From Sphingorhabdus sp. (GTDB lineage Bacteria > Pseudomonadota > Alphaproteobacteria > Sphingomonadales > Sphingomonadaceae), in NCBI RefSeq assembly GCF_023910635.1, contig NZ_JAAVVZ010000004.1:62001-126000 (forward strand): 64,000 nucleotides of DNA. Direction: 5' to 3'. Positions 25,479 to 61,683 of this stretch are shown in pieces (the stretch's first letter is position 1; the number at the start of each line of letters is the position of its first letter). The notes beneath the pieces are model-generated. The model was not told the origin of the DNA. It searched no databases and worked only from the letters and a program-made list of their open reading frames with translations. The position numbers were made by a program, and so were the translations under genes.

Positions 25479-25482
25479 TAGA

Positions 25483-42352: not shown

Positions 42353-42592
42353 TTTTTATCCCCTCAACCATCCCCCAACGTTGCGAGGGTTTTTAATCTC
42401 CACTGTGCAGACTGAAACTGGAGACCCACTCAAGCAACTGACCAAATTTTCGCGATTGGTAAAATAAATTCTGCAATCAATTACATCATCTACATATCCC
42501 GATTAGAAGACCTAATATATGTCTGAACGAGATGGTTAGTGCGGCATTGGGAGGCTAGGCGGTGCCCAATTTCTATGGGAGTAGGGTACAAG

Positions 42593-43450: not shown

Positions 43451-43488
43451 GATCCGCGCAGAATAGCAAGATATTAAGGATAACTGAT

Positions 43489-44601: not shown

Positions 44602-45012
44602 ATGGCGTCAATCGCAGACATTTTGGCCGTGCATAAGGATAGAGAAGGTCCGCTCCTGCCCATCTTGCATGACGTGCAAAAGGCATTTGGCCATGTCAGC
44701 GAAGATGCGATGCGCGAGATTGCTGGCGCACTGAACCTGACACGCGCCGAAGTTTATGGTGTCGTCAGCTTCTATCATGATTTCCGCAAAGAAGCTGAAG
44801 CCCGGCCCGTTTTGAAATTGTGCCGGGCCGAAGCCTGTAAGGCACGCGGCGTAGAGGCGTTGGTCCCCATCGCCGACAACCAAAGCCGCGTAAAAGTGGA
44901 GGCTGTTTATTGCCTTGGGTTATGCGCGGTTGGTCCATCTGCGATGGTGGGCGACACAGTCTATGCACGTTTGGACGATGCTAAGTTCAAAATGATATTG
45001 GAGGCGATGTGA
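44602..45012 (+). CDS. fdsG: Formate dehydrogenase gamma subunit (NuoE-like)
   Basis: 136 residues. A thioredoxin-like [2Fe-2S] protein: HDVQKAFGHVSEDAMREIAG, YGVVSFYHDFR, then the cluster Cys residues in LKLCRAEACKARG and YCLGLCAVGPSAMV. It passes electrons between the Mo subunit chain and the flavin subunit in soluble NAD-dependent formate dehydrogenases. The next gene begins by overlapping its stop codon. Confidence 0.92.
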   Translation: MASIADILAVHKDREGPLLPILHDVQKAFGHVSEDAMREIAGALNLTRAEVYGVVSFYHDFRKEAEARPVLKLCRAEACKARGVEALVPIADNQSRVKVEAVYCLGLCAVGPSAMVGDTVYARLDDAKFKMILEAM

Positions 45013-46451: not shown

Positions 46452-46993
46452 GAAGGCTGGGCGCTATCATTGCCGGTGGCAAGGCGACGCGCTTTGGCAG
46501 CGACAAGGCCGCTGCACACCTGAACGGTCGCCCGCTGATCGAACATATTGCCGATGGATTGCGCGAACAGGTTGACGCCTTAATTGTCTGTGGGCGTGCA
46601 TGGCCAGGAATGGATTGGGTAGAAGACACCCCCTTTGCCGATATGGGGCCATTGGGTGGCCTGAATGCTGCGCTTTTATATGCGCAGCAAAACGGCTTTG
46701 ACGAAGTATTGACCGCTGGCTGCGACGTCGTTCCTGTGCCGGAATTGCCGCGCAATATGCCCGATGGACGTGCCGTCTATATCGACGGGCATTATCTGTT
46801 CGGCGTTTGGCCCGTTGCGCTTGCACCTGTTCTTGACAGGCATCTGCGCAATCAGGATAATCTTTCGATGCGAAGCTGGATCACATTAACCGGCGCGCAA
46901 GCCGTGATATCTTCAGATGCATTGCACAATTTGAACACGCCTTTGGAACTTGCGCAATATGCTGCGCAACAATCGCAAATGGGTATAAGGTAG
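46448..46993 (+). CDS. mobA: Molybdenum cofactor guanylyltransferase
   Basis: 181 residues, GTG start overlapping fdsB. The nucleotidyltransferase signature LGAIIAGGKATRFGSDKAAA is at the N-terminus, and AGCDVVPVPELP has the metal-binding Asp. It converts molybdopterin to the guanine dinucleotide form carried by formate dehydrogenases of the DMSO reductase family. Its position between fdsB and fdsA suggests cofactor supply is tied to enzyme synthesis. Slightly shorter than many MobA proteins. Confidence 0.9.
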   Translation: MRRLGAIIAGGKATRFGSDKAAAHLNGRPLIEHIADGLREQVDALIVCGRAWPGMDWVEDTPFADMGPLGGLNAALLYAQQNGFDEVLTAGCDVVPVPELPRNMPDGRAVYIDGHYLFGVWPVALAPVLDRHLRNQDNLSMRSWITLTGAQAVISSDALHNLNTPLELAQYAAQQSQMGIR

Positions 46994-47001
46994 GTAGATA
47001 T

Positions 47002-49860
47002 ATGACATACCAGCCGCAAAAAGATTTCGGAACGCCGGAAAGTCGCTCGGACGAGGCGGTGTCGTTGACCATCGATGGCCGGGAAGTCACTGTGCCCGCT
47101 GGCACCAGCGTCATGCGCGCGGCGGCCGAACAAGGCACATCCATTCCCAAATTATGCGCGACCGATAGCGTCAAAAGCTATGGCTCATGCCGCCTATGTC
47201 TTGTGGAAATTGACGGCCGCAGGGGTACGCCCGCAAGCTGCACCACGCCCGTTGAACCGGGCATGGTTGTCCGCACGCAAACCCCGCAACTGGCCAAATT
47301 GCGCAAAGGCGTGATGGAGCTGTATATCTCCGACCATCCGCTCGATTGTCTGACGTGTGCCGCAAATGGGGATTGCGAATTGCAGGATCAGGCAGGCGCC
47401 GTTGGCTTGCGCGATGTGCGTTATGATGTGCAGGCGACACATCTGGGGCAAGAAAAAGATCACTCCAACCCCTATTTCGATTTCGATCCCAGCAAGTGCA
47501 TTGCCTGCTCCCGTTGCATCCGCGCCTGTGACGAAGTGCAAGGCACGCTTGCGCTCACCATGGAAGGCAGGGGTTGGGACTCCAAGATATCCGCAGGGTT
47601 TGCCAGTGACAATTTCATGGGGTCGGAATGTGTTTCGTGCGGTGCCTGTGTGCAAGCCTGCCCCACGGCGACGTTGGTCGAGAAAAAAGTTGTTGAGGTC
47701 GGCACGCCGGAACGTAGCGTCGTTACGACCTGCGCTTATTGCGGTGTCGGCTGCACCTTCCGCGCCGAAATGCGCGGCGAACAATTGGTCCGTATGGTCC
47801 CTTATAAAGACGGCAAGGCCAATCGCGGCCATAGTTGCGTCAAGGGCCGCTTTGCATGGGGCTATGCCCAGCATCAGGAACGCATATTGAAGCCCATGAT
47901 CCGCAAGTCGATCAGCGACCCGTGGCGTGAGGTCGAATGGGACGAGGCCTTTGCCTACACCGCGTCCGAACTGAAGCGGATTAGCGCGAAATACGGCCGC
48001 AATGCGCTTGGCGGCATCACGTCAAGCCGTTGCACCAACGAAGAAACCTTCCTTGTGCAAAAACTTGTGCGTGCGGGCTTTGGGAACAACAACGTCGATA
48101 CGTGCGCGCGCGTGTGTCATTCGCCGACCGGATATGGCCTCAAAACCACCTTTGGCACCAGCGCGGGGACGCAGGATTTTGACAGCGTCGAAGACAGCGA
48201 TGTCATCCTGATCATTGGTGCGAACCCCACCGATGGCCACCCCGTTTTCGCCAGCCGGATGAAACGCCGTTTGCGCGGACAGGATGGACGCCCCGGCGCA
48301 AAGCTTATCGTCATCGACCCGCGCCGGACCGATATCGTGCGCTCGCCGCATATCGAGGCGCAGCATCATCTTCCCTTACGCCCTGGCACCAATGTCGCGG
48401 TGCTGACTGCAATGGCGCATGTTATCGTGACCGAGGGTCTGGCCGATGAAGCCTTTATTCGCGAACGTTGCGATTGGGACGAATATAGCCATTGGGCCGA
48501 ATTTGTTTCGCAAGCCCGCAACAGCCCCGAAAATCTACAGCCAGTCACTTTGGTCGATGCCGAAGAACTGCGCGCAGCGGCGCGTTTATACGCCACAGGC
48601 GGCAATGGTGCGATCTATTACGGCCTTGGCGTCACGGAGCATTCGCAAGGCAGCTCAACCGTCATGGCAATCGCCAATTTGGCAATGGCGACGGGCAATA
48701 TTGGTCGCAGCGGCGTTGGCGTAAACCCGCTTCGCGGTCAGAACAACGTCCAAGGCGCGTGCGACATGGGCAGCTTCCCGCATGAACTTGCCGGATATCG
48801 CCACATAAGCGACAAGGGCGCGCGGGCCTTGTTTGAAAAGGATTGGGGCGTGACGCTGGATCCGGAACCCGGCCTGCGCATTCCCAATATGCTCGACGCT
48901 GCGGTCGATGGCGTGTTCAAGGCGCTATATTGCCAGGGTGAGGATATCCTCCAGTCCGATCCGAACACGGCCCATGTGTCCGCAGGGCTGGCCGCGATGG
49001 AATGTGTGATCGTCCACGATCTTTTCCTCAACGAAACCGCAAATTACGCGCATATCTTCCTGCCCGGATCGACCTTTTTGGAAAAGAACGGCACCTTCAC
49101 CAATGCCGAACGCCGCATTCAACCCGTGCGCAAGGTGATGACCCCCATGAACGGGTTGGAGGATTGGGAAGTCACGCAGCGGCTCGCGCAAGCGATGGGG
49201 CTGAATTGGAACTATAGCCACCCGTCCGAAATCATGGACGAAATCGCGCGGCTTACGCCAACCTTTGCCGGCGTATCCTTTGCGCGGTTGGATGAGATGG
49301 GCTCGCTGCAATGGCCCGTGACCGCCGACGCGCCTGACGGATCACCCATCATGCACATTGACGGCTTTGTGCGCGGTAAGGGCAAGTTTGTTGTGACCGA
49401 TTATGTCCCGACGGATGAGAAAACCGGCCCACGTTTCCCGTTATTGCTGACCACCGGGCGGATATTATCGCAATATAATGTTGGCGCGCAAACACGGCGG
49501 ACCGAGAATGTCGCGTGGCATCCCGAGGATTTGCTCGAAATTCATCCGGTGGATGCCGAAGATCGCGGCGTCAAATCGGGCGATTGGGTGAAGCTAGCGA
49601 GCCGCGCGGGCGAGACCACGTTGCGCGCCAATGTGACCGACCGCGTTGCCCCGGGCGTTGTGTATACTACATTCCACCATGCGGTAACGCAGGCCAATGT
49701 TGTCACGACCGACTATAGCGACTGGGCGACCAATTGCCCCGAATATAAGGTCACGGCGGTGCAGATCAGCGCCTCGAACGGACCAACCGAGTGGCAAGAA
49801 GAATATGAGGCCTTGTCGGCCCGCGCGCGCCGCGTGGAAACCGGGATTGCCGCCGAATGA
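47002..49860 (+). CDS. fdsA: Formate dehydrogenase alpha subunit (molybdenum, Cys-type)
   Basis: 952 residues. The N-terminal NuoG-like part has [2Fe-2S] ligands (SYGSCRLCLVEIDG), the His-Cys cluster (DHPLDCLTCAANGDCELQ) and two ferredoxin clusters (CIACSRCIRACDE and CVSCGACVQACPTA). The catalytic part follows: [4Fe-4S] ligands CAYCGVGCTF, the Mo ligand Cys in CARVCHSPTGYGL (Cys in place of selenocysteine), molybdopterin domains and the C-terminal cap. It oxidises formate to CO2 in the cytoplasm. It lacks the Tat signal of periplasmic enzymes. Confidence 0.95.
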   Translation: MTYQPQKDFGTPESRSDEAVSLTIDGREVTVPAGTSVMRAAAEQGTSIPKLCATDSVKSYGSCRLCLVEIDGRRGTPASCTTPVEPGMVVRTQTPQLAKLRKGVMELYISDHPLDCLTCAANGDCELQDQAGAVGLRDVRYDVQATHLGQEKDHSNPYFDFDPSKCIACSRCIRACDEVQGTLALTMEGRGWDSKISAGFASDNFMGSECVSCGACVQACPTATLVEKKVVEVGTPERSVVTTCAYCGVGCTFRAEMRGEQLVRMVPYKDGKANRGHSCVKGRFAWGYAQHQERILKPMIRKSISDPWREVEWDEAFAYTASELKRISAKYGRNALGGITSSRCTNEETFLVQKLVRAGFGNNNVDTCARVCHSPTGYGLKTTFGTSAGTQDFDSVEDSDVILIIGANPTDGHPVFASRMKRRLRGQDGRPGAKLIVIDPRRTDIVRSPHIEAQHHLPLRPGTNVAVLTAMAHVIVTEGLADEAFIRERCDWDEYSHWAEFVSQARNSPENLQPVTLVDAEELRAAARLYATGGNGAIYYGLGVTEHSQGSSTVMAIANLAMATGNIGRSGVGVNPLRGQNNVQGACDMGSFPHELAGYRHISDKGARALFEKDWGVTLDPEPGLRIPNMLDAAVDGVFKALYCQGEDILQSDPNTAHVSAGLAAMECVIVHDLFLNETANYAHIFLPGSTFLEKNGTFTNAERRIQPVRKVMTPMNGLEDWEVTQRLAQAMGLNWNYSHPSEIMDEIARLTPTFAGVSFARLDEMGSLQWPVTADAPDGSPIMHIDGFVRGKGKFVVTDYVPTDEKTGPRFPLLLTTGRILSQYNVGAQTRRTENVAWHPEDLLEIHPVDAEDRGVKSGDWVKLASRAGETTLRANVTDRVAPGVVYTTFHHAVTQANVVTTDYSDWATNCPEYKVTAVQISASNGPTEWQEEYEALSARARRVETGIAAE

Positions 49861-50069
49861 ACAGTGAGGAGCGCCTCATCTACATGGCGAACCAGATTGC
49901 GACCAATCTGGCAACCGACGCTGCGCCGGTTGCTGCGGTTGCCGACCATATCCAGACATTCTGGGACCCGCGGATGAAAAGGATGATTTTTGCCCATGGG
50001 ACCGATGGCCTGTCGCCGGTTGCGGCGGCCGCCATTCGCTTGCTGGCCGACGCGCAAAATGGCGGTTGA
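49857..50069 (+). CDS. fdsD: Formate dehydrogenase delta subunit
   Basis: 70 residues, overlapping the fdsA stop by 4 bases. The sequence RLIYMANQIATNLATD followed by VADHIQTFWDPRMKRMIFAH is the FdsD signature. It is a small protein needed for assembly or stability of the FdsGBA complex. Its 3' end overlaps the fdhD start. Confidence 0.9.
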   Translation: MNSEERLIYMANQIATNLATDAAPVAAVADHIQTFWDPRMKRMIFAHGTDGLSPVAAAAIRLLADAQNGG

Positions 50070-50859
50070 ACAGGGCGCAAAACCGATACGCTTTGCGGTG
50101 CTTAAACCCGGTCATGGTTCGCCCGAAGCTATAGAAAGAGCCGTTATAGCTGAGGCACCCGTCGCCATTGAATATAATGGCATCGGCTATGCCGTGATGA
50201 TGGCAACGCCGATTGATCTTGAAGACTATGCCGTAGGTTTCAGCCTGTCAGAAGGGTTGATTGAGCGCCCGGACGATATTCTGGCCCTTGATGCCCATAG
50301 GTCAGAATTGGGCTGGATATTGCGCATTCAGGTGCCGCAGAAAAATGCCGAAAAAGTGGTTACCCGCGCCCGTCAGCGTGTGTCAGAAAGTAGCTGCGGC
50401 CTGTGTGGCATGGACAATCTCGACGAAGTCATGCGTCCCTTGCCGCGTGTAACGGCACAGATTGATGTCGCCGATGCTGCAATTTTTGCGGCGCTATCCG
50501 CATTGCGGTCGCATCAGACGTTAAATGCGCAAACCGGGTCCGCACATGCGGCGGCGTTCTGCACGCCGGACGGTGCTATTCTGATGACGCGCGAAGATGT
50601 TGGCCGCCATAATGCGCTCGACAAGTTGATTGGCGCACTTGCCCGCGCCGACATCGATATCACTTCCGGCTTTATCATCCTGACCGCGCGGTGCAGCCTT
50701 GAACTGGTGCAAAAGACGATCCTTGCTAACTGTCCAATGCTCGTAACGATTTCGGCGGCGACCGATCTGGCGATCCATATCGCTGAAAAATCCGGCCTAC
50801 GCTTGATCAGTCTGGCGCGCGCGGACTCGGCGCTTGCCGCAAGGCCCCAAAACGGCTGA
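50059..50859 (+). CDS. fdhD: Formate dehydrogenase accessory sulfurtransferase
   Basis: 266 residues from the ATG at 50059, inside the end of fdsD. The sulfur-carrying pair is seen in SSCGLCGMDNLDEV, and TREDVGRHNALDKLIG is the conserved nucleotide/cofactor-binding stretch. FdhD (FdsC in Rhodobacter) transfers sulfur to the molybdenum cofactor before insertion in FdsA. The last 53 bases overlap the convergent LysR gene. Confidence 0.93.
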   Translation: MAVEQGAKPIRFAVLKPGHGSPEAIERAVIAEAPVAIEYNGIGYAVMMATPIDLEDYAVGFSLSEGLIERPDDILALDAHRSELGWILRIQVPQKNAEKVVTRARQRVSESSCGLCGMDNLDEVMRPLPRVTAQIDVADAAIFAALSALRSHQTLNAQTGSAHAAAFCTPDGAILMTREDVGRHNALDKLIGALARADIDITSGFIILTARCSLELVQKTILANCPMLVTISAATDLAIHIAEKSGLRLISLARADSALAARPQNG

Positions 50860-51721
50860 TCAGCCAGCTGCGTAGCATCGAAATGGCGGGATCGGCGAGA
50901 TCATCGGCGTGGAGTTTCAAATAATAGCCATAGCCGTCTTCAATCACCGCATCATACGGCATCACGAGCCGCCCATCGGCAATTTCCTGCGCGAACATAT
51001 CAATATCGCCCAAAAAGACGCCCTTGGCTGCCATGGCATATTGCGCCACCGCAATCGTGGTGTCGAAGGCAAGACCAGCATGCGTCGCGACGGCCAGCTG
51101 GCTCTGCCGAAGATAGGCCGTCCACAAAAGGTCGCGCGGCTCGCCATCGAGTTTGAGGTGCAAAAGCTCCTCACTTTTCAAAAAATCCTCCAGCGACTTG
51201 CCCTGAGCGCTGGCCGCTGTTGCGGGTGAACATAGCGGCGCAACGCGCACCATCCAGAGAAGGTCGGTAATCCGGTCATCGACATTGGGCCGGTCATACA
51301 CAATAGCCATGTCGAAATCGGTTGAGGGCAGCCCCGTCACATGCGCGCTCGACACATCAAGGCGCAAATCGGGATGCTCAACGTGAAAATCACGGAGCAT
51401 CGGAAGGAACAATTGTTGCAGCAGCGACGGCGGCACATGCAGCCGCAGCGAACGGCCAGCCACCTCATCATCGCGAATGGAATTCATCGTTTGCTCGATC
51501 CGGTCGAGGCATTTGCTCACCACCGGCAACAATTCTTCGCCAGCCGCCGTCAGCGAAAGCCGCGACGCGTCACGCACGAACAATTGCTTGCCCAGCAGCT
51601 CCTCAAGTCCGCCGACATGCCGGCTCATCGCACTTTGTGACACCGAAAGCGCCGACGCACCGCCGGTGAAGCTGAGATTCTGCCCAACCGCTTCAAACGC
51701 GCGCAGGGCATTTAATGGCAA
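50807..51721 (-). CDS. LysR family transcriptional regulator (GcvA-like)
   Basis: 304 residues. LNALRAFEAVGQNLSFTGGA and LSVSQSAMSRHVGGLEELLG form the winged helix; the effector domain follows. No ATG exists between the upstream in-frame stop and the conserved start, so translation probably begins at TTG 51721 (or an ATT a few codons earlier). It is divergent from the Rieske-sox operon 176 bases away, its most likely target, as LysR genes usually regulate the divergent operon. It could also affect the C1 operon it converges with. Confidence 0.87.
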   Translation of the reverse strand: MPLNALRAFEAVGQNLSFTGGASALSVSQSAMSRHVGGLEELLGKQLFVRDASRLSLTAAGEELLPVVSKCLDRIEQTMNSIRDDEVAGRSLRLHVPPSLLQQLFLPMLRDFHVEHPDLRLDVSSAHVTGLPSTDFDMAIVYDRPNVDDRITDLLWMVRVAPLCSPATAASAQGKSLEDFLKSEELLHLKLDGEPRDLLWTAYLRQSQLAVATHAGLAFDTTIAVAQYAMAAKGVFLGDIDMFAQEIADGRLVMPYDAVIEDGYGYYLKLHADDLADPAISMLRSWLISRFGALRQAPSPRAPD

Positions 51722-51897: not shown

Positions 51898-53109
51898 ATG
51901 GATTTGCAGCGTATAAGCGCGCTTTTTGAACAGCGCCGTGCAGGGCACACCTTGCCCCAGGCTTTATATACCGAAGCCGAGAGCTTTGATTTTGATATGG
52001 CCGCGATCTACGGCCAAAGCTGGCTGATGGCCGGTATGGAATGCGAATTGCCAAAAGCAGGCAGTTACATCTCCATGATGGTGGGCAAATGGCCTGTGGT
52101 TATAACGCGGGATAAGGAAGGCACGATCCGCGCGTTTCACAACAGTTGCCGCCATCGCGGATCAATGATTTGCGCGCTTGGCAGCGGCACAACGCCCAAG
52201 CTGGTCTGCCCCTATCACCGTTGGACCTATGATCTGGACGGTTCCTTATTCGCGGCTGGCCGGATGGACAGCAGCTTCGACAAAAGCGAACATGGCCTAA
52301 AACCTGTTGCGATTGAATGCATATCGGGCACGATCTTCATTTGCCTTTCGGATACGCCGCCACCCATTGACGACTTTCGTGCAAAACTGACCGAATATGC
52401 CGCGCCGCATAATCTGACACAATCAAAGCTCGCGTATGAAAGCGTTCTGGTCGAAAATGCCAATTGGAAACTGGTGATGGAAAATGCCCGCGAATGCTAT
52501 CATTGCAGCACCGGCCATCCAGAATTGTCGAAGACATTTCCCGTCGGCATGTCAAAGCATTTTGACAGTGGTCATGATGCCCGCGTCATGGGGTTTGAGG
52601 CCCAAATGGACGCGCTTGGCCTACCGCAAACCCCCGTTGAGGGCCATTATTGGCAAATCGCGCGCTTTGCGTTGAATGAAGGTTGCGTTTCGATATCCGG
52701 CGATGGCAAGCATCTGTCAAAAAAGCTGATGTGTGAAGCCAATGGCGGCGATATCGGTTCGATGCGCTGGGCGGTTGATCCGCATTGCTTTGTGCATTGC
52801 ACGGCAGACCATGTTTTCATGTTCAGCGCCATGCCAGTTGGCCCCAATGAAACCCATGTCACGGGCAAATGGTATGTGCATAAGGACGCCGTTGAAGGCG
52901 TCGATTATGACGTTGAAAAGCTTATCGCCTTATGGACCGTCACCAATTTGGAAGACAAGGCGCTGGCCGAGAACAATCAACTTGGTGTCAACAGCCTCGG
53001 CTACACACCAGGCCCTTATTCGCAAGAAGCCGAAATGCTGGCGCAACGTTTTACCGACTATTATTGTGACAAGGCCCGTGGGTATATTGCGACCCATGGC
53101 AAAGGATAA
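51898..53109 (+). CDS. Rieske oxygenase alpha subunit, betaine demethylase-like
   Basis: 403 residues from the ATG at 51898 (AAAGG seven bases upstream). Rieske ligands in NSCRHRGSMICA and LVCPYHRWTYDLDG; mononuclear iron site in NWKLVMENARECYHCSTGHP. It belongs to the same GbcA-like N-demethylase group as the protein at 21784 but is clearly a different paralogue, so a different quaternary ammonium substrate is plausible. It leads an eight-gene operon, and its end overlaps the PLP gene by 14 bases. No reductase subunit is encoded beside it. Confidence 0.87.
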   Translation: MDLQRISALFEQRRAGHTLPQALYTEAESFDFDMAAIYGQSWLMAGMECELPKAGSYISMMVGKWPVVITRDKEGTIRAFHNSCRHRGSMICALGSGTTPKLVCPYHRWTYDLDGSLFAAGRMDSSFDKSEHGLKPVAIECISGTIFICLSDTPPPIDDFRAKLTEYAAPHNLTQSKLAYESVLVENANWKLVMENARECYHCSTGHPELSKTFPVGMSKHFDSGHDARVMGFEAQMDALGLPQTPVEGHYWQIARFALNEGCVSISGDGKHLSKKLMCEANGGDIGSMRWAVDPHCFVHCTADHVFMFSAMPVGPNETHVTGKWYVHKDAVEGVDYDVEKLIALWTVTNLEDKALAENNQLGVNSLGYTPGPYSQEAEMLAQRFTDYYCDKARGYIATHGKG

Positions 53110-54355
53110 CATCAAGGGGTTGCGCCCCGAAACGCTCGCGGTTGCTTTTGGCTATGACCCTGAAATGGGCATGGGGTCGGTCAAACCACCGATTTTCATG
53201 ACATCGACATTCGTCTATCCATCGGCGCAACATGCCAAATATGTGCATGAAGCCTATTTTGACGGCACTGGGCCATTGGTTGGGGAAACCAACCATATCT
53301 ATTCGCGACTTGGCCATCCCGGTCTGGATTTTCTGGAAACCCGGCTGGCCGCCATTGATGGTGCGCAAGATGCCGTGGCCTATTGCAGCGGCATGGCCGC
53401 ACATTCCAGCATCGCGCTGGCTTATGTGCGCGCCGGCGATAGCGTCCTGCATGGACGGCCAATTTATGGCGGGGTAGACTTTCTCTACAATGTCATGATG
53501 CCGCAATTCGGATCGCATGTGACCGCCTATCTGGACGGCACGGATGAAGATCATGTCCGGGCCGCAGCAGACGCAGCGATAGCAAAGGGTCCGTTAAAGC
53601 TTATCATTGCTGAAACCCCCGCCAACCCGACAGCGGCGATTGTTGATCTCGACCTCATGGTCCGTATTGCCGATGAAATTGGGGCAAAACAGGGGCATCG
53701 CCCGCTTGTGGTGGTCGACAATACGCTGCTTGGTCCATTTGCGCAGCGCCCAATTGAACATAATGTCGATCTGTGCATGACCTCGCTCACCAAATATTGT
53801 GGAGGTCATAGCGACTTGCTGGCGGGCGGGATTTCGGGCCGGAAGGAACTGATTGATCAGCTCAAGCTCCAGCGCACAACTTGGGGCAATCATCTTGATC
53901 CCTTCACCGCTTGGCTTGTGCTCCGGTCACTGGAATCGGTCGCTGTGCGCACCGAACGGGCCATGCGCAACGCGCGCATTGTCGCCGAATATCTGCGCGA
54001 TCACCCCAAGGTCGATGGCGTCACCTATTTGGGTTTTCTGCCCGAAGGGTCGCGGCAGCGCGCCGTGTATGACCGGCAGTGCACAGCCGCGGGATCGACC
54101 TTTTCCTTCCACCTTCATGGCGGTGAGGCGGAGGCGTTCCGGATGCTGGATCAGCTTAAGCTGATGAAATTAGCGGTCAGCCTTGGCGGGTCAGAGACGT
54201 TGATCTGCCATTCGGCGAGCACAACGCATTATGCAGTCGCGCGGGAACAGCGATTGGAAGGCGGGATAACCGATGGCACGATGCGGCTGTCGGTCGGGTT
54301 GGAACATGTCGACGATCTTATCGGCGATTTGAAACAGGCATTGGAAGCAGTTTGA
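53096..54355 (+). CDS. Cys/Met-metabolism PLP enzyme (cystathionine gamma-synthase/lyase family)
   Basis: 419 residues. Fold-type I PLP enzyme: VKPPIFMTSTFVYPSAQHAK, cofactor residues in AYCSGMAAHSSIALAY, PLP Asp in VVVDNTLLGPFAQRP, and the Schiff-base Lys in MTSLTKYCGGHSDLLAG. At the active-site loop it reads YGGVDFLYN; the Cys typical of methionine gamma-lyase (YGC) is missing. It could cleave or exchange a beta or gamma substituent (sulfur, amine or oxygen) of an amino acid. Such an enzyme is not part of known glycine betaine catabolism, so its place between a demethylase and sarcosine oxidase genes is unusual. Confidence 0.85.
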   Translation: MAKDNIKGLRPETLAVAFGYDPEMGMGSVKPPIFMTSTFVYPSAQHAKYVHEAYFDGTGPLVGETNHIYSRLGHPGLDFLETRLAAIDGAQDAVAYCSGMAAHSSIALAYVRAGDSVLHGRPIYGGVDFLYNVMMPQFGSHVTAYLDGTDEDHVRAAADAAIAKGPLKLIIAETPANPTAAIVDLDLMVRIADEIGAKQGHRPLVVVDNTLLGPFAQRPIEHNVDLCMTSLTKYCGGHSDLLAGGISGRKELIDQLKLQRTTWGNHLDPFTAWLVLRSLESVAVRTERAMRNARIVAEYLRDHPKVDGVTYLGFLPEGSRQRAVYDRQCTAAGSTFSFHLHGGEAEAFRMLDQLKLMKLAVSLGGSETLICHSASTTHYAVAREQRLEGGITDGTMRLSVGLEHVDDLIGDLKQALEAV

Positions 54356-55818
54356 TGGATCTGAACTTTACCGGAATCGATGTGTGCGCCGTCAATGGCA
54401 CACGAAGCGCACCCGAAGCCAAATATGACCTTGTTGTCATTGGCGCCGGGCCAAGCGGCATTACCGCTGCCATCGAAGGCGCAGCCAGCGGAGCTTCGGT
54501 TCTTCTGGTGGATGAAAATCCCGTGTCCGGCGCGCTGATGGGCAATGATACGCCGCTCTATTTCGGGGGCAGGATGACGGCTGCGACGCAGAATAAAGAC
54601 CGGATGCTGGAAGCCATTTTCATGAGCATGCCTGATCTTGAAAAGGCAATGGAGGCCGGCGTTGAACTGCTGCTCGGCACCACAGCGTGGGGCGTGTATC
54701 GCAACGGGCCGGGCGTGCAGAGCTTGCCAGAGCAAGTTGTTGGCCTTGCCGATGCAGAACGGTCTTGGCTGGTCGGCTTTGACCGGATTGTGCTCGCAAC
54801 GGGTGCCCGCGACCTTGCCATTGCCTTTCCCGGATGGAACCAGCCTGGTGTGATGGGGGCCGCTGCCTTACAAATGCTGCTATCGCGCTATGGAGCCTTT
54901 TCCGGGCGACGCATTGTCGTTTTGGGGACGCATGACCTCGCGCTCGAAACCGCGCTTCTGGCGCTGGAGCATGGGCTGGATGTCGCCGCTTTGGTGGAAG
55001 TGCGCGATGCCCCGCAAGGCGACGCCGCACTTCTCGAAAAAATTACGGCGGCGGGCATACCCACATATTATGGGCAGAGCATCGCGGCAAGCAAAGGCGG
55101 ACTTGATGGGATCGAATCCATCACCTTGACCGATGGCACCAACATTGCGTGCGACACCGTGTGCGTCGCGATTGGCCTTGTCCCCTCGATTGAGTTGGTC
55201 GATGCCATGCATGGCCCAAGGGCGCTGAACGCGGCACGCGGCGGATATATTCCGGCTGGCGAGCCAAATGTGACAGCCGTTGGCCTGTGCGCTGGGCTAC
55301 CCGACACAGGTTTTGACCATGTCGCCTATCGGATGGATTGGGTGCGTGCGGCGCTGCGCGTCAATGCGCCCGATACGATCATCTGCCAATGTGAAGAGGT
55401 GACACTCGCGGACCTGATCGGCATTCAGCCGCCCAATTACCTCCCCCGCCCTGCGGCGCTTCAGGCCCGCTCGCTTGGCACGCTGCTCGACGATGGCCCG
55501 GCCAACCCGGATCAGATCAAGCGGCTGACCCGCTCTGGCATGGGTGTGTGTCAGGGTCGTCGCTGCCGCGATCAGGTGGCGATGATGCTGGCGATTGAAT
55601 CGGATAAGCCATTTGGCACGATCCCGCTCGCAACGCACCGCGCACCCGTGCGCCCCCTGCCGCTCAAGATATTGGCAGAATGGGATGAGCCTGCGGGGAT
55701 GGATGCGGCGTGGGATGTCTGGTTCGGCATTCCGACCCAATGGGTGCCCGTCGAGGATATTGGAACGCCTTATCAGGACGAGCATCGCGAGATGCTCTAC
55801 ACGGGGATGTACACATGA
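54355..55818 (+). CDS. Opine oxidase alpha/HcnB-like FAD and [2Fe-2S] protein
   Basis: 487 residues; the ATG overlaps the PLP gene's stop (TGATG). NAD(P)/FAD-binding disulfide-reductase-type fold: YDLVVIGAGPSGITAAIEGA (FAD) and RIVVLGTHDLALETALLALE (second nucleotide fold). C-terminal BFD-like cluster-binding region with CQCEEVTLADL and GVCQGRRC. This layout fits the alpha subunit of opine oxidases, HcnB of cyanide synthase and hydroxyproline dehydrogenase, which work with a beta flavoprotein. The small [2Fe-2S] gamma subunit (HcnA type) is not encoded next to it. Confidence 0.83.
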   Translation: MDLNFTGIDVCAVNGTRSAPEAKYDLVVIGAGPSGITAAIEGAASGASVLLVDENPVSGALMGNDTPLYFGGRMTAATQNKDRMLEAIFMSMPDLEKAMEAGVELLLGTTAWGVYRNGPGVQSLPEQVVGLADAERSWLVGFDRIVLATGARDLAIAFPGWNQPGVMGAAALQMLLSRYGAFSGRRIVVLGTHDLALETALLALEHGLDVAALVEVRDAPQGDAALLEKITAAGIPTYYGQSIAASKGGLDGIESITLTDGTNIACDTVCVAIGLVPSIELVDAMHGPRALNAARGGYIPAGEPNVTAVGLCAGLPDTGFDHVAYRMDWVRAALRVNAPDTIICQCEEVTLADLIGIQPPNYLPRPAALQARSLGTLLDDGPANPDQIKRLTRSGMGVCQGRRCRDQVAMMLAIESDKPFGTIPLATHRAPVRPLPLKILAEWDEPAGMDAAWDVWFGIPTQWVPVEDIGTPYQDEHREMLYTGMYT

Positions 55819-56951
55819 GCGGCTCAGACGTAGTCATCGTCGGCGGTGGCGTCACGGGTCTCAGCGCAGGCTGGTGGCTGGCCAAGTCCGGCGTGAAGGT
55901 TACGGTGCTCGACAAGTTCATTGTCGGTTGGGAAGCCTCCGGGCGCAATGGCGGCGGTGCATCACATTATTCCAGCCCCCTGTTCGAGGAAGAACAAAGG
56001 CTTTGGCCACAAATGGATGAACTGCTTGGCTATCCGACAGAGCATCAAAAGGGCCGCATCCTGATCGCGATGACCGAACGTCAATGGGACCAATATCGCT
56101 TCATTGCGGAACGGCACACCCGCCTCAACCACCCGGTCGAGCTGCTAGACGTCAAGCAAGTGCAAGAGGCTGTTCCGCTGGCGGGCGACAATTGCTTTGG
56201 CGGCGTGCACTATAAATTTGGCGGCCACGCCAACCCGCAACGCACGGTTCAGGCCTATGCCTGGGCGCTGCAAGACCTCGGTGGCAAAATCATTCAGCAC
56301 AGCCCGGTCACGGGCTTTGAAACCGCCGGTGGCAAGGTGACGGGCGTAAAAACCGCCAATGCGACCTATGGCTGCGATGCTGTTGTCGTCGCCGCCGGGC
56401 CGCAAATACCGCAATTGATGGCGCAATTGGGCGTTGATGTCCCTCTGGCTGCCGCGCGCGCGGAAATGATCATTACCGAACCTGCCCCCATGATGCCGCT
56501 GGGCGGCGTTGATGGGCATAAGATTTATGGCCGCCAGACGTTGCGCGGTAACCTCGCTTATGGCGGCGGTCCGCATGAATGGTTGGATGTCGATGCAAAT
56601 GGCCCGGCGGCGCGGCCATCGACGCCATTGGCGCGTAACCTTGCAAAAAGGCTGGCCGAACTGCTGCCCAAGGCTGCGCATCTCAACGTCATTCGCAGCT
56701 GGGCAGGCGTGATTGAAAATTCGCCCGATGGCCGCCCGATTATTGATCGGCTCAATAGCCCCGACAATGTCGTTGTCGCCTCCATGTCCAGCGTTGGCTT
56801 TGGCCTGTCGCCAGCATCGGGTCATGCGATCCGCGATCTGGTGATTGATGGCGCATGCTCCTTTAGTAATATCGACCTTCTCAAGCTGTCACGCTTTGAC
56901 GGGCTTGAAAAGGATTGGCGTGAAAAGCGTGGGTGGATGCCCATCGCATGA
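55815..56951 (+). CDS. Opine oxidase beta/HcnC-like FAD-dependent amine oxidoreductase
   Basis: 378 residues; ATGA overlap with the preceding gene. DAO fold: DVVIVGGGVTGLSAGWWLAK (FAD motif), GWEASGRNGGGASHYSSPLF, and the C-terminal RSWAGVIENSPDGRPIIDRL. With the previous protein it should form the catalytic half of an amine-oxidising complex that cleaves a secondary or tertiary amine C-N bond, as in octopine/nopaline oxidase. Its 3' end overlaps soxB. A sarcosine oxidase-like single enzyme is a possible alternative, but the pairing argues for the opine oxidase type. Confidence 0.83.
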   Translation: MSGSDVVIVGGGVTGLSAGWWLAKSGVKVTVLDKFIVGWEASGRNGGGASHYSSPLFEEEQRLWPQMDELLGYPTEHQKGRILIAMTERQWDQYRFIAERHTRLNHPVELLDVKQVQEAVPLAGDNCFGGVHYKFGGHANPQRTVQAYAWALQDLGGKIIQHSPVTGFETAGGKVTGVKTANATYGCDAVVVAAGPQIPQLMAQLGVDVPLAAARAEMIITEPAPMMPLGGVDGHKIYGRQTLRGNLAYGGGPHEWLDVDANGPAARPSTPLARNLAKRLAELLPKAAHLNVIRSWAGVIENSPDGRPIIDRLNSPDNVVVASMSSVGFGLSPASGHAIRDLVIDGACSFSNIDLLKLSRFDGLEKDWREKRGWMPIA

Positions 56952-58204
56952 GCCGATATTCAGCCTTCAGCCTGTTGCGCGGCGCTCTCACGGGGCACCG
57001 CCACTGGCAGCCAGCATGGCGCGACCCAGAGCCGAAATCGCATTATGATATCATCATCATAGGCGGCGGAGGCCATGGGCTGGCAACGGCATATTATCTG
57101 GCCAAGGTTCATGGTCTAAAGAATATTGCCGTTCTGGAAAAAGGCTGGATTGGCGGTGGCAATACCGGGCGCAACACGACGATTGTGCGGTCCAATTACC
57201 GGCTGGAGCCTTTGCATAATCTCTTCGAATTTGGCCTGAAGCTCTGGCACGGCCTGAGCGATGAGTTGAATTACAATGTGATGTTCAGCCCGCGTGGCGC
57301 AATGTTCCTTGGTCATAGCGACGCCGATATGGTCAAGCTGGCCGAGCGCGGCGACGCCATGCGCTGTGACGGGATTGATGCCGATCTGTTGACCCGTGAT
57401 CAGGTGGCAAAGATCGAGCCGCTTTTGGATATGTCGCGCGATGCGCGCTTTCCCATTCAGGGTGGCCTGATCCAGCGCCGGGGCGGAACCGCACGGCATG
57501 ATGCGGTTGCTTGGGGCTATGCCCGCGGCGCGGATAGCCTGGGCGTCGATATCATTCAAAAATGCGAAGTCACAGGCTTTGTGCGCGATGGCGACTTTGT
57601 GGTTGGCGTGGAAACAACACGCGGACGCATTGGCGCGGGGCGCGTCGGTATTTGCGTTGCAGGCAATAGCGGCCATGTCGCGGGCTTGGCTGGCCTGAAA
57701 CTGCCGATTGAATCCCAAACGCTGCAAGCCATGGTGACCGAAGGGGTCAAGCCGATGATCAACAGCGTGATCATGTCGCAATCCTTGCATTGCTATATCA
57801 GCCAATCGGACAAGGGCGGCGTCGTCTTTGGCGGCGACCCGGATAATTGGCCAAGCTATGCCCAGCGTGGCAACCCGATGGTGATGGAAGGCGCTGTGGC
57901 GCAGGGCCTTGCGCTCGTGCCCGCTTTATCCCGCCTGCGCATGGTGCGAACCTGGAGCGGGGTTACCGATATGAGTTTTGACGGCGCGCCGATCATTGGC
58001 GAAACGCCGGTCCGCAACCTCTTCCTCAACGGTGGCTGGTGCTATGGCGGGTTCAAGGCAACGCCAGCCTCCGGTTATACCTATGCCCACACGCTGGCGA
58101 CGGGAAAGCCACATGCGCTGAATGCGCCTTTCGCGCTTGATCGCTTTGAACGCGGCGCAACCATTGATGAAACGGGGAGCGGCCCCATGCCGAATAGCCG
58201 CTAA
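56948..58204 (+). CDS. soxB: Sarcosine oxidase beta subunit
   Basis: 418 residues from the ATG overlapping the previous stop. N-terminal SRYSAFSLLRGALTGHRHW and DIIIIGGGGHGLATAYYLAK are diagnostic of SoxB. GWIGGGNTGRNTTIVRSNY and NGGWCYGGFKATPASG are further family marks; the His of RHDAVAWGYARG lies in the substrate region. It holds FAD and the FMN shared with SoxA and oxidises sarcosine to glycine. First of the four sox genes, in the usual order B-D-A-G. Confidence 0.95.
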   Translation: MSRYSAFSLLRGALTGHRHWQPAWRDPEPKSHYDIIIIGGGGHGLATAYYLAKVHGLKNIAVLEKGWIGGGNTGRNTTIVRSNYRLEPLHNLFEFGLKLWHGLSDELNYNVMFSPRGAMFLGHSDADMVKLAERGDAMRCDGIDADLLTRDQVAKIEPLLDMSRDARFPIQGGLIQRRGGTARHDAVAWGYARGADSLGVDIIQKCEVTGFVRDGDFVVGVETTRGRIGAGRVGICVAGNSGHVAGLAGLKLPIESQTLQAMVTEGVKPMINSVIMSQSLHCYISQSDKGGVVFGGDPDNWPSYAQRGNPMVMEGAVAQGLALVPALSRLRMVRTWSGVTDMSFDGAPIIGETPVRNLFLNGGWCYGGFKATPASGYTYAHTLATGKPHALNAPFALDRFERGATIDETGSGPMPNSR

Positions 58205-58467
58205 TGATGCGCATCCCTTGCCCGCATTGCGGCCCACGCGCGCAATCAGAATTTATCTATGAGCGCACATTGGATTCGGTCGTCCCGTTGAACGCGCCTT
58301 CGCAAGAGGCGATGGCCAAGCTCTTCACCCGCAACAATCCGCGCGGCGTCGATGACGAAATCTGGCGGCACACTTATGGCTGCCGGGCGTGGATGGTTTT
58401 GACGCGCCACCGCGTCACCAATGAGATTTCCGGGTGCCGCGCCATCGGGCCGGAGGCGTTGCCATGA
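58204..58467 (+). CDS. soxD: Sarcosine oxidase delta subunit
   Basis: 87 residues; ATG overlaps the soxB TAA (a second ATG follows at 58207). Zinc-binding motif IPCPHCGPRAQSEFIYER and the C-terminal GCRAWMVLTRHRVTNEI are typical. It is the small zinc-binding structural subunit of heterotetrameric sarcosine oxidase. Confidence 0.95.
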   Translation: MMRIPCPHCGPRAQSEFIYERTLDSVVPLNAPSQEAMAKLFTRNNPRGVDDEIWRHTYGCRAWMVLTRHRVTNEISGCRAIGPEALP

Positions 58468-61199
58468 TAAACTTCCGCTTTGATGGTAAAACCTATGCCG
58501 CGCAGGCAGGTGACACGCTGGCGGCGGCATTGTTGCGTAATGGCATTGGCCTTGTCGGCCGAAGCTTCAAATATCACCGCCCACGCGGCATCATGACCGC
58601 AGGCGTTGAAGAACCAAATGCGCTCGTCACCGTCGGCGAAGGCGGCAGAACAGAACCCAATACCCGCGCCACCGATGTGTTCGTCTATGAAGGCCTTGTC
58701 GCCAAAAGCCAGAATCGCTGGCCCAAACTGTCATTCGATGTCGGGTCAGTTCTGGGCCTTGCTGCGCCTGCTTTATCCGCCGGTTTTTATTATAAGACCT
58801 TTTTCGGTTCAGCCAGAAAATGGATGTTCTACGAATATTTCATCCGCAAAGCGGCGGGCCTTGGCAATGCACCCACGCTTGCCGACCCTGACCGTTTTAG
58901 CCAGCGTGCGGCCTTTTGTGATGTCTTGGTCGTCGGCGCTGGACCCGCAGGTATGCAGGCCGCGCTCGACGCTGCCGAAGGCGGCAAGCGCGTCATCTTG
59001 GTCGAACAAGACAATATCCTCGCGCCGTCCTTGCTGCGCGACCGCCAAGAGCAGGATGCAGATTGGACCAAAACCACCGCCGCGCGCATCCGCGCCGCAG
59101 GCGGCGTCATCCTCACGCGCACTACCGCCTCTGGCTATTGGGAACATGACCTCGTCACCCTGACGCAGCGCATATCGGAGCCGGGACAAGTCCCCGATAA
59201 TGGCGTGGCGCAACGTTTATGGCATGTCCGCGCTGGCCAGGTCATTCTCGCCACCGGAAGCATTGAGCGGCCCATGGCCTTTGCCCATAATGACCGCCCC
59301 GGCGTCATGCTGTCGCAAGCCGTGCGCACTTATGTCCGCCGCTTTGGCGTCGTTCCCGGCAAACGCGTCGTGATCGCAACCAACAATGACGATGCCTATA
59401 AAACTGCTCAGGCGCTAAAAGACGCAGGCGCGCAAATTGTTGCGATCCTTGACGCACGGCCAGCACCTGCGGGTGCCAACAGCGGGCATCGCGTCTATAA
59501 TGATGCCGTTCCGCTTTCGACCAAAGGCGCGCGGCATTGCCTGAAAAGCGTATCCGCGCTGGTCGATGGCAAGACGATGGACTGGGATGCCGATCTGCTT
59601 GCCGTGTCCGGTGGGTTTACGCCTGTCGTGCACCTGCATATGCAAGCGGGCGGGACGCTGGATTGGCATGAGGATGCGCAAGCCTTCATCCCCGCCAGTT
59701 CGCGTCAGAATGTGACGACCATCGGCGGGGCCGCTGCTCCGCAACCGATATTCAAAATGGTCCCCGTTTCTAGCGCTAAGAAAAGCTTCATCGATTTCCA
59801 AAATGATGTGACATTGGCCGATGTCGATCTGGCTTGGGCCGAAGGCTATCGCTCGGTCGAACATCTCAAACGCTACACCACTTTGGGCATGGCCACCGAT
59901 CAGGGCAAGTTGAGCAATATGGCCGCTTTGGGGCGTTTGGCCGAAAAGCAGGGCGTCGCCATTCCCGAAGCCGGTTTGACCACATTCCGTCCGCCTTATA
60001 CGCCTGTCACGATGGGTTTGATCGCAGGGGCAAGCGCAAAAGACGCAGGCGCGCATGTCCGCCGCCTTGCCTTATATGACCTGCACGCGGCAAAGAATCC
60101 GATCTGGCAGCCCTTGGGCTATTGGTTCCGCCCGCGCGCTTACCCCATAAGCGGCGAAAGTTTGGCGCAAGCCGCGCTGCGTGAGGCAAAGGCCGTGCGC
60201 AACAATGTCGGGATGACCGATGTGTCCACGCTTGCCAAATTTGAAGTCAGCGGCCCCGATGCTGCCGCTTTCCTCGACATCATTTGCGCCACCACAATAA
60301 GCAAACTGGCCGTCGGGCGTGGCCGCTACACCTTCATGCTGCGCGAAGATGGCATTGTCTTTGATGATGGCACCGTGTGGCGGCTGGACGAGCATCGCTA
60401 TCTGCTCACCAGTTCGACTGGCGGCGCGGACCGCATGGCGACGCATATCTCTTATGTCCGCCAATTTCTGTGCCCACATATGCGCGTGTCTGCCGTCAAT
60501 GTGCAGGAGCATTATGCCGGTCTGGCCGTTGCCGGACCAAAAGCGAAAGCGGTGATCGCCGCTTTAATCGGTGAAGAGCCACCACGCCACATGTCGACCG
60601 TTCCGGCGGCAATCGCGGGCGTTCCGGTTATCATCTTGGCCGCCAGCTATAGCGGCGAACGCGCCTTTGAAATCTATGTCGATGCCAGCCAAGCAGAAGC
60701 CGTCTGGGCCGCCTGCGAAAGCCAAGTGAACGCGTTAAGCGGCGCGTTATATGGGCTTGAGGCGATGGAGTTTCTGCGCATTGAAAAGGGCCATTTGGTC
60801 GTCGGCGGCGAGGTCGATGGGCGGATGACGCCGCATGATCTGGCGCTCGACAAAATGCTCAACAAGGCGGGTGGGTATATTGGCGCATCGGGCCTTGCCC
60901 GCCCCGCTTTGTCCGAAACCGGGCGGCGGCAATTGGTCGGGCTGGAGGCGATTGCGGGCGACATTCCCGAAGGCGCGATGCTGATCCCCAGCGAAGGCGC
61001 GTCACCGCAGGGCCATGTCAGCGCGGCGGCTTTCCGCATCGTGACGGGCGGGTCTGTTGCGCTTGGCCAATTGACCGACGGCTTTTCGCGGCATGGCGAA
61101 ATCCTCATCGCAAGCTCCCCCACACGCGGGCAACAGGCGCGGGTGCGCGTTGTGGCCCCGCATTTCTATGATGCCGCAGGGGAGCGTTACCGTGACTGA
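58464..61199 (+). CDS. soxA: Sarcosine oxidase alpha subunit
   Basis: 911 residues from the ATG overlapping the soxD stop (MINFRFDGKTYAAQAGDTLA). An HcnA-like fold comes first (RSFKYHRPRGIMTAGVEEP), then the NAD-binding domain (DVLVVGAGPAGMQAALDAAE), and from about 570 the GcvT/folate domain (KFEVSGPDAAAFLDIICATT and YGLEAMEFLRIEKGHLVVG). It binds NAD and THF and takes the C1 unit of sarcosine to 5,10-methylene-THF, or frees formaldehyde if folate is lacking. Length is about 60-90 residues under typical SoxA (near 970-1000). Confidence 0.94.
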   Translation: MINFRFDGKTYAAQAGDTLAAALLRNGIGLVGRSFKYHRPRGIMTAGVEEPNALVTVGEGGRTEPNTRATDVFVYEGLVAKSQNRWPKLSFDVGSVLGLAAPALSAGFYYKTFFGSARKWMFYEYFIRKAAGLGNAPTLADPDRFSQRAAFCDVLVVGAGPAGMQAALDAAEGGKRVILVEQDNILAPSLLRDRQEQDADWTKTTAARIRAAGGVILTRTTASGYWEHDLVTLTQRISEPGQVPDNGVAQRLWHVRAGQVILATGSIERPMAFAHNDRPGVMLSQAVRTYVRRFGVVPGKRVVIATNNDDAYKTAQALKDAGAQIVAILDARPAPAGANSGHRVYNDAVPLSTKGARHCLKSVSALVDGKTMDWDADLLAVSGGFTPVVHLHMQAGGTLDWHEDAQAFIPASSRQNVTTIGGAAAPQPIFKMVPVSSAKKSFIDFQNDVTLADVDLAWAEGYRSVEHLKRYTTLGMATDQGKLSNMAALGRLAEKQGVAIPEAGLTTFRPPYTPVTMGLIAGASAKDAGAHVRRLALYDLHAAKNPIWQPLGYWFRPRAYPISGESLAQAALREAKAVRNNVGMTDVSTLAKFEVSGPDAAAFLDIICATTISKLAVGRGRYTFMLREDGIVFDDGTVWRLDEHRYLLTSSTGGADRMATHISYVRQFLCPHMRVSAVNVQEHYAGLAVAGPKAKAVIAALIGEEPPRHMSTVPAAIAGVPVIILAASYSGERAFEIYVDASQAEAVWAACESQVNALSGALYGLEAMEFLRIEKGHLVVGGEVDGRMTPHDLALDKMLNKAGGYIGASGLARPALSETGRRQLVGLEAIAGDIPEGAMLIPSEGASPQGHVSAAAFRIVTGGSVALGQLTDGFSRHGEILIASSPTRGQQARVRVVAPHFYDAAGERYRD

Positions 61200-61683
61200 A
61201 CTGACAATCTCCACCCTGCCCTCCGCCCCGTTGCATGTGTTTGAAATCTGGAGCAACGCAGCGGCGGTGGCCAAGCGATTTAAGGCAACATGCGGCTTTG
61301 CCTTGCCCGATATGGGCCGTTCGGGCGGCAGCGATGCGCTCCGCCTGATCCGTTTTGAACCCACGGTGTGGCTGGTCGAGGGCGACGCGTCGGCACTGTC
61401 CGCCATATTGTCCGATGACGGCGCGGTAACAGCCATCGGCGGCGGCATCGTCCGCATCCGCCTGTCGGGCAAAGGCTGGCGCACGCTCCTAATGGAAGGC
61501 GGCGTGTTCGACGCCGAAAGCCCAACTTTCGCCGCCGGATGCAGCGCAGCGACAATCATCGACCACGTCAACGTCCGCCTGCACGTCGTCGATGAAACCA
61601 CCTGCGACGCCTATGTGCCCTTAAGCTTCAGTCAGGGCCTGCTGCACTTTTGGGAACAAGCCGCAGGGAGTTTGGTGGGGTAG
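61192..61683 (+). CDS. soxG: Sarcosine oxidase gamma subunit
   Basis: 163 residues, GTG start at 61192 overlapping the soxA stop. The GcvT-like small subunit shows APLHVFEIWSNAAAVAKRF, LIRFEPTVWLVEGDAS and the C-terminal YVPLSFSQGLLHFWEQAAG. It completes the SoxBDAG complex. A near copy of its last 46 bases occurs at 63669. The 90 bases after it contain no clear terminator. Confidence 0.93.
   Translation: MTELTISTLPSAPLHVFEIWSNAAAVAKRFKATCGFALPDMGRSGGSDALRLIRFEPTVWLVEGDASALSAILSDDGAVTAIGGGIVRIRLSGKGWRTLLMEGGVFDAESPTFAAGCSAATIIDHVNVRLHVVDETTCDAYVPLSFSQGLLHFWEQAAGSLVG

Follow-up and report, generated by a model that had tools for sequence, protein, structure and literature searches.

A conserved eight-gene operon of Sphingorhabdus that may break down a betaine larger than glycine betaine

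What substrate is served by an operon that joins a betaine-type Rieske oxygenase to a Cys/Met-type pyridoxal phosphate (PLP) enzyme, a flavoprotein pair resembling opine oxidase and four sarcosine oxidase-like subunits? The question is raised by a stretch of 64,000 nucleotides from Sphingorhabdus sp. (contig NZ_JAAVVZ010000004.1, positions 62,001 to 126,000; hereafter the window), in which eight open reading frames (ORFs) follow one another on the plus strand from 51898 to 61683 and all seven junctions overlap (by 14, 1, 4, 4, 1, 4 and 8 bases in order). An original prediction from the letters alone had proposed an eight-gene overlapping unit with a divergent LysR regulator; its coordinates, strand and overlaps were all confirmed, and its gene names agree with the domain assignments made with Pfam and NCBIfam models. 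The gene set is conserved and apparently undescribed, and is found here in a freshwater bacterium. The operon, its regulator and the one-carbon (C1) disposal genes immediately 5' of it (PurU, AdhC for formaldehyde, FdhB, a MobA-like gene, FdhA and FdhD), which are likewise found ahead of the operon in most close loci, within the reach of the contigs, are as follows.

51898..53109, plus strand: Rieske oxygenase of group V (quaternary amine), with Ala197 at the position of CntA Tyr203 (GbcA model, motif and solved relatives)
53096..54355, plus strand: Cys/Met-type PLP enzyme (PF01053, PRK07049 model)
54355..55818, plus strand: OoxA-like FAD/NAD(P) subunit with a C-terminal four-Cys motif (PF07992)
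55815..56951, plus strand: OoxB-like DAO-family FAD subunit (PF01266; nearest solved relatives 1y56_B and SoxB chains)
56948..58204, plus strand: SoxB-like subunit (TIGR01373, 658.6 against a cutoff of 529.45, above it)
58204..58467, plus strand: SoxD-like subunit (PF04267; TIGR01374, 74.7 against 116.5, below it)
58464..61199, plus strand: SoxA-like subunit with a folate-binding GCV_T domain (PF01571; TIGR01372, 997 against 1164, below it)
61192..61683, plus strand: SoxG-like subunit, GTG start inferred (TIGR01375, 50.9 against 143.95, below it)
50807..51721, minus strand: LysR-type regulator, divergent from the operon, start codon uncertain (PF00126/PF03466; adjoins the module in three families)
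42539..50859, plus strand: C1 disposal genes (names read from the sequences, with no family search run)

Judging from sequence comparison, we put it at slightly under an even chance that the operon acts on a trimethylated alpha-amino acid bigger than glycine betaine, removing all its N-methyl groups and then performing an elimination, the likeliest substrate being homoserine betaine or the headgroup of the betaine lipid diacylglyceryl-trimethylhomoserine (DGTS). The Rieske, OoxAB and Sox proteins are read as three demethylases, one for each methyl of a trimethylammonium group. The operon would be a variant of betaine catabolism, with serial demethylation in place of the OoxAB step proposed originally. 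The pathway that we infer, in its every reaction, their order and its substrate, from the gene order, families, residue signatures and linkage seen in the sequences would start with a linked hydrolase releasing homoserine betaine or its O-glyceryl ether (the DGTS headgroup). The Rieske oxygenase would then take off the first methyl (NMe3 to NMe2) and OoxAB the second (NMe2 to NHMe), each as formaldehyde, and SoxBDAG would take off the third (NHMe to NH2) as methylene-tetrahydrofolate, after which the PLP enzyme would act on the freed amino acid, eliminating its beta or gamma substituent and leaving a 2-oxoacid and ammonia. The C1 products would pass to the AdhC, Fdh and PurU proteins encoded just upstream, and the 2-oxoacid may be used by an AceE-like E1.

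Other genomes of the host's family have the genes in the same order, LysR|Rieske-PLP-OoxA-OoxB, and so do genomes of two further families of Alphaproteobacteria. Looking for the same gene order elsewhere was a check suggested with the original prediction, and the scattering of the genes in related genomes, which would have spoken against it, was not seen. (Loci, genomes and one of the families are given below by our L, G and f numbers; genes at neighbour loci were called by codon-usage scoring, as longest-ORF calling gave shadow ORFs.) A contig scan yielded 24 loci, of which 23, at 79-98% PLP identity, have LysR|Rieske-PLP, and the sole locus at 46% identity does not have that order. Two of the 23 end inside the PLP gene at a contig end and 21 run on into OoxA, which was matched in two pieces at L015 and L019; this may be a frameshift or merely a split alignment. 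A PLP match at E 1e-120 or better was present in 30 of 396 order-level genomes, and OoxA adjoins the PLP gene in all 19 of those with at least 65% PLP identity (own genome included) and in none of the 11 at 46-51% identity within the 3-4 kb fetched. The association of the module genes is more than chance, the counts being those of related genomes and thus not of independent events. Among the environmental strains with the module are Sphingorhabdus wooponensis, S. rigui DSM 29050 and Novosphingobium capsulatum.

Outside the order, the module was found in two of 385 class-level genomes, one being G747, a member of family f70, and the other G434, the single genome sampled from its family; the other class-level PLP matches (48-53% identity) have no OoxA. 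A search of family f70 found a PLP match in 22 of 149 genomes, with OoxA adjoining in 18 of the 22, and in one of the f70 loci (L142) a single ORF of 875 amino acids stands in for OoxA and OoxB. OoxA was found in a phylum-wide sample of 299 (E 1e-70) only in G747 besides the own genome, and no relatives of the PLP enzyme were found in viral contigs. SoxBDAG extends the operon in 13 of 14 host-family stretches (the exception is L075), does not continue it in N. capsulatum, L088 or any f70 stretch, and is represented by SoxG/SoxA near the module on the opposite, convergent strand in five f70 loci (L087 and L126-L129). Two operons, L073 (G342) and L074 (G145), have no Rieske gene and keep the remainder; Rieske genes of three types are absent from the adjoining stretches L159 (G342) and L160 (G145), where other demethylases are kept, and these stretches look as if all the first-step Rieskes had been lost together.

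The Rieske oxygenase has the group V signature. Members of group V have a bridging Glu and, in some cases, a Cys-X-X-Cys beside the mononuclear iron, and the group is split by one substrate-contact residue, which is aromatic (Tyr/Phe) in group Va (CntA, CmoA) and Asn in group Vb (GbcA, Stc2) (PMC10952381, PMC7948474). Among 55 distinct module-type Rieskes, chosen by at least 50% identity to P0001 and by coverage rather than by neighbours, the bridging Glu and Cys-X-X-Cys (the E-C-Y-H-C motif) are present in all 55, and the residue at the position of CntA Tyr203, located as lying two positions away from the bridging Glu, is Ala in 33 and Gly in 22 and never Asn or Tyr/Phe. The operon Rieske thus has the group V feature and neither the Asn of group Vb nor the Tyr/Phe of group Va. 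Asn occupies the position in two L089-type Rieskes and in three from two Paracoccus species and Ancylobacter, and Phe in a further protein of the window, Rieske2, these six sequences forming the outgroup. A small contact residue would fit an alpha-substituent bulkier than that of glycine. The best solved relatives of the operon Rieske are 3n0q, 3vca and 4qup, the latter two of which we take to be Stc2.

Is this, then, ordinary glycine betaine catabolism, in which the Rieske oxygenase, OoxAB acting as dimethylglycine dehydrogenase (DMGDH) and SoxBDAG lead to glycine and the PLP enzyme is an accessory of methionine or cysteine metabolism? We consider this unlikely, and the operon is probably not for glycine betaine breakdown, because the same genome holds a separate set 4.7-13.3 kb past the window end (L089: DMGDH-like, Rieske with Asn, SoxB, SoxA and SoxG-like) whose SoxA passes its model, and because the module Rieskes have Ala/Gly instead of Asn. 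On TIGR01372 (cutoff 1164) the L089 SoxA reaches 1388, against 997 for the operon SoxA and 974 for that of the L083 module. Only soxB of the four operon subunits reaches its NCBIfam cutoff; cutoffs are likewise missed by soxD and soxG of Paracoccus and by soxG of L089, while the soxA of both pass, so that soxA alone discriminates. The operon SoxA carries the GCV_T domain (PF01571, 3.3e-59). Three further Cys/Met PLP homologues in the genome and the persistence of the PLP gene next to OoxA in distant families also speak against an accessory role. In favour of glycine betaine, the operon Rieske, at 441.1 bits on the GbcA model NF058607 (cutoff 670), outscores the L089 Rieske at 411; both are below the cutoff, as are the Paracoccus (528) and Ancylobacter (541) Rieskes, and since these scores do not separate the sets, the case for L089 as the glycine betaine set rests on its SoxA and Asn. 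A link between glycine betaine demethylation and methionine synthesis is also described for Ruegeria (PMC12478193).

A third demethylase set lies inside the window, and in genome G378 the three sets adjoin one another. Other neighbours suggest further amine routes near the module.

21784..27900, minus strand: third set ("set A"), Rieske2 and two DMGDH-like proteins (DMGDH name by reading; NCBIfam GcvT/soxA C-terminal matches)

Rieske2 (21784-23037, group Va-like by its Phe) adjoins the two DMGDH-like proteins and looks like a separate amine pathway. The slot in which the window holds Rieske2 and this pair is taken, in L082 (4752-6634) and L159 (from 8845 to about 10665), by a TauD protein (by reading like gamma-butyrobetaine hydroxylase, BBOX) and a class II aldolase, between SDR and QOR. 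In L084 (222-7718) two proteins like MttB (trimethylamine methyltransferase), one like formate-tetrahydrofolate ligase and an FAD protein, all named by reading with no family search, lie beside the module; together they are a possible alternative demethylation route.

The placing of OoxAB as the second N-demethylase is supported by plasmids of Paracoccus and Ancylobacter, on which ABC transporters for glycine betaine accompany a Rieske gene, a GbcB-like reductase gene (below cutoff) and OoxAB, in stretches that show no homologue of the PLP enzyme, an arrangement that also counts for the glycine betaine account above; in P. denitrificans SoxBDAG lies close to this set. The nearest solved relatives of OoxB, 1y56_B and SoxB chains, are listed as sarcosine oxidase subunits. 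AdhC directly follows OoxB in L087, L130 and L139 of family f70, as would be expected if OoxAB releases formaldehyde. OoxA carries a C-terminal CxC...CxxxxC in 71 of 72 loci (counted per locus, not deduplicated) and, by Pfam, is without the folate domain that SoxA has. At first OoxAB had been proposed to cleave an N-substituted amino acid at a C-N bond and leave sarcosine for SoxBDAG, in the manner of opine oxidase, whose defining reaction is the C-N cleavage of an N-carboxyalkyl amino acid. The OoxA/OoxB architecture is like that of opine oxidase pairs, and Sox genes extend the operon in nearly all the host-family stretches and lie nearby in five f70 loci, and yet we now regard this step as very unlikely. 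The Paracoccus and Ancylobacter context, the solved relatives of OoxB, the AdhC genes and the sub-cutoff SoxA all indirectly disfavour it, as does L088, where a DAO-family protein, read as like monomeric sarcosine oxidase (MSOX), stands beside OoxB and no SoxBDAG was found in the stretches searched. L088 also has an OpuAC betaine-binding protein.

The PLP enzyme retains the machinery for an alpha-amino acid yet forms its own subgroup. Tyr69, Arg71, Tyr124, Asp208, Lys233 and Arg397 are invariant in all 55 distinct module sequences (the alignment has 56 module rows, the query being there twice); we take Lys233 to be the PLP lysine, Arg397 the arginine that binds the substrate carboxylate, and Tyr69/Arg71, Tyr124 and Asp208 to be catalytic. 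Because a free alpha-amine is needed, the enzyme should act after demethylation. Fourteen positions separate the module enzymes from 28 non-module ones, among them Thr229, close to the PLP lysine, and His266 and Tyr379, which from the fold are presumably near the active site; in this comparison the non-module class includes four sequences at 58-63% identity that bear the module signature but show no OoxA in the fetched stretch, and a sequence at 33% identity was dropped beforehand. On the PRK07049 cystathionine gamma-synthase family model (NF005455) the enzyme scores 507.3 bits, marginally above the cutoff of 504, and a paralogue in the same genome scores 579.5. It might be supposed that a sulfur betaine (of methionine or S-methylcysteine) is the substrate and that the elimination frees a thiol, given that the PLP family includes methionine gamma-lyase-like enzymes and that met_gam_lyase is the second-best NCBIfam model. 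On that model (TIGR01328) the enzyme scores 333 against a cutoff of 549.7. We think a sulfur betaine improbable, since the residues that we take as methionine gamma-lyase hallmarks (Cys116 and Lys240/Asp241 in P. putida numbering) are replaced in the alignment by Gly126, Arg260 and Thr261, and no sulfur genes were noticed among the part of the module neighbours whose sequences were read.

Further genes are linked to the module. Linkage was counted in 42 genomes, being those with a module-type PLP gene (L129, L135, L143 and L144, which have no OoxA beside it, included), and in 20 comparators drawn from the order-level genomes without a PLP match, of which 346 more were left out. The following lie in the window.

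32008..33633, minus strand: glucose-methanol-choline (GMC) oxidoreductase resembling choline dehydrogenase but below the model cutoffs, linked upper-pathway gene
33630..34817, minus strand: enolase-superfamily protein like acid-sugar dehydratases, linked upper-pathway gene (nearest solved 4e5t, listed without function)
30053..31006, plus strand: beta-hydroxyacid-dehydrogenase family protein, like 3-hydroxyisobutyrate dehydrogenase (HIBDH), linked upper-pathway gene
16325..18658, minus strand: AceE-like 2-oxoacid dehydrogenase E1 (distant aceE match, 155.9 against a cutoff of 859.9)

A hydrolase resembling platelet-activating factor acetylhydrolase (PAF-AH) and PETase, with an N-terminus that reads as a signal peptide, is present in 27 of the 42 genomes, as a single copy in 26 and as three (one a fragment) in the own genome, where it lies 678 bases past the window end. 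It is on the PLP contig in 18 genomes and within 15 kb of the PLP gene in 15 of these, where 0.26 would be expected. Only this orthologous family was counted as linkage evidence; generic alpha/beta hydrolases near the module were discounted because such genes are common. CocE/NonD hydrolases adjoin the module in N. capsulatum and lie near OoxAB in Ancylobacter, a patatin gene is within the operon of L076, and in L076-L078 an FGGY kinase (read as GlpK) and a DAO protein (read as GlpD) stand beside the module. DGTS or homoserine betaine is the preferred substrate because a leaving group at the gamma carbon of a trimethylated alpha-amino acid, the linkage of an ester hydrolase and glycerol as a possible product all point that way; other betaines with a leaving group are possible. 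An N-methylated amino acid derivative with a beta or gamma leaving group had already been put forward in the original prediction, and this part of it is probably right, for a substrate other than glycine betaine. Recycling of the host's own DGTS as the purpose of the operon was considered and rejected, there being no BtaA in the host and BtaA in only one of 41 genomes.

The dehydratase-like gene (E 1e-100) is in 23 of the 42 genomes and the HIBDH-like gene in 22, both in none of the 20 comparators, and the latter is within 40 kb of the PLP gene in all 12 cases on the same contig. The AceE-like E1 is in 23 of the 42 and in one comparator, and adjoins the module in L079, L080 and L138; MdeB is an E1 of this kind that partners methionine gamma-lyase (for 2-oxobutyrate), and our literature search found no paper on MdeB. 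These linkages could mean that the operon serves an upper pathway (GMC, aldehyde dehydrogenase, dehydratase-like and HIBDH-like proteins) whose substrate would be a carnitine-like or hydroxylated betaine, the PLP enzyme coming in at a late intermediate. The restriction of the two genes, among the 62 genomes, to those with a module-type PLP gene, and their position near that gene, would agree with it, as would the BBOX-like TauD proteins (so named by reading) near the module in L082, L087, L139 and L159. We give this little credence: carnitine has no alpha-amine for PLP chemistry, and 19-20 of the 42 genomes (some of them drafts) lack these genes, so that the core seems to work without them. 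Under the demethylation and elimination scheme, oxidation of the glyceryl end and an enolase-type beta-elimination may cut the ether in those genomes that have the upper genes.

Several observations weigh against the demethylation and elimination scheme. BtaA was not found in the host, so that DGTS would have to come from outside, and a GbcB-like reductase was not found in the own genome in a search made without a positive control. The hydrolase is missing from 15 of the 42 genomes and also matches PETase and peptidase models, and its secretion is a reading of its N-terminus; E1 is missing from 19 and, as said, the sugar-acid genes from 19-20, and the glycerol genes are confined to one lineage (three genomes of one genus), as AdhC beside OoxB is to one genus (three loci). 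In family f70 the PLP gene has no adjoining OoxA in L129, L135 and L143, the last of which is also without a Rieske gene, and L144 ends inside the PLP gene. A distant OoxAB pair of Rhizobium etli lies without a Rieske gene among electron transfer flavoprotein and aminobutyrate genes, which shows that OoxAB does not go with betaines in every case. The higher GbcA score of the operon Rieske than of its counterpart in the supposed glycine betaine set belongs here too.

Some neighbours were noted in passing. A TPR/sulfotransferase-like protein (by reading; no NCBIfam match at 1e-20) at 37565-39571 of the window has a TonB receptor and an MFS transporter as neighbours, and a like protein adjoins the module in L083 and L135. 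A small protein at L087:5214-5771, adjoining the TauD protein, reads as HD-domain-like and has no Pfam match at 1e-6. In L090 (C23:146001-166000) a reading frame of 6666 amino acids, a giant protein, spans the whole fetched 20 kb stretch.

Betaine lipids take the place of phospholipids under phosphate starvation in some bacteria, as described for Phaeobacter (PMC10132767), and likewise in green algae (Chlorella). No bacterial catabolic pathway for DGTS or homoserine betaine surfaced in a literature search of partial coverage. That the operon is the missing bacterial route for the DGTS headgroup and homoserine betaine, made up of a lipid-ester hydrolase, a new Rieske subclass with a small contact residue, two more demethylases and a gamma-lyase, is less likely than not; by such a route an algal lipid free of phosphorus would yield its methyl groups, its nitrogen and a four-carbon acid. 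As the operon is conserved and compact and its substrate class testable, the question of betaine lipid catabolism is directly addressable, and an Ala/Gly Rieske would be a third contact-residue class in group V.

Set beside known systems, the module is close in plan to the glycine betaine pathway of GbcAB, dimethylglycine dehydrogenase and SoxBDAG, sharing with it a Rieske protein first, a flavoprotein second and Sox third, with C1 units going to formaldehyde and folate; it differs in having a PLP enzyme in second place, OoxAB in place of DMGDH, a Rieske below the GbcA cutoff with Ala/Gly, and SoxA, SoxD and SoxG below their model cutoffs. Stachydrine demethylase, Stc2 of group Vb, is among the best solved relatives of the operon Rieske and shares its Glu-Cys-X-X-Cys motif, but has Asn where the module Rieskes have Ala/Gly. 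The module pair resembles opine oxidase OoxAB and allied amino acid dehydrogenases of two subunits in having two FAD subunits and a four-Cys C-terminus on the alpha subunit; it differs in being placed between the Rieske/PLP and Sox genes and in being replaced in L142 by one ORF. Methionine gamma-lyase and the PRK07049 enzymes belong to the same family as the module PLP enzyme and share its PLP lysine and carboxylate arginine, but the module enzyme departs from methionine gamma-lyase in model score and hallmark residues and has the 14 positions specific to its own subgroup.

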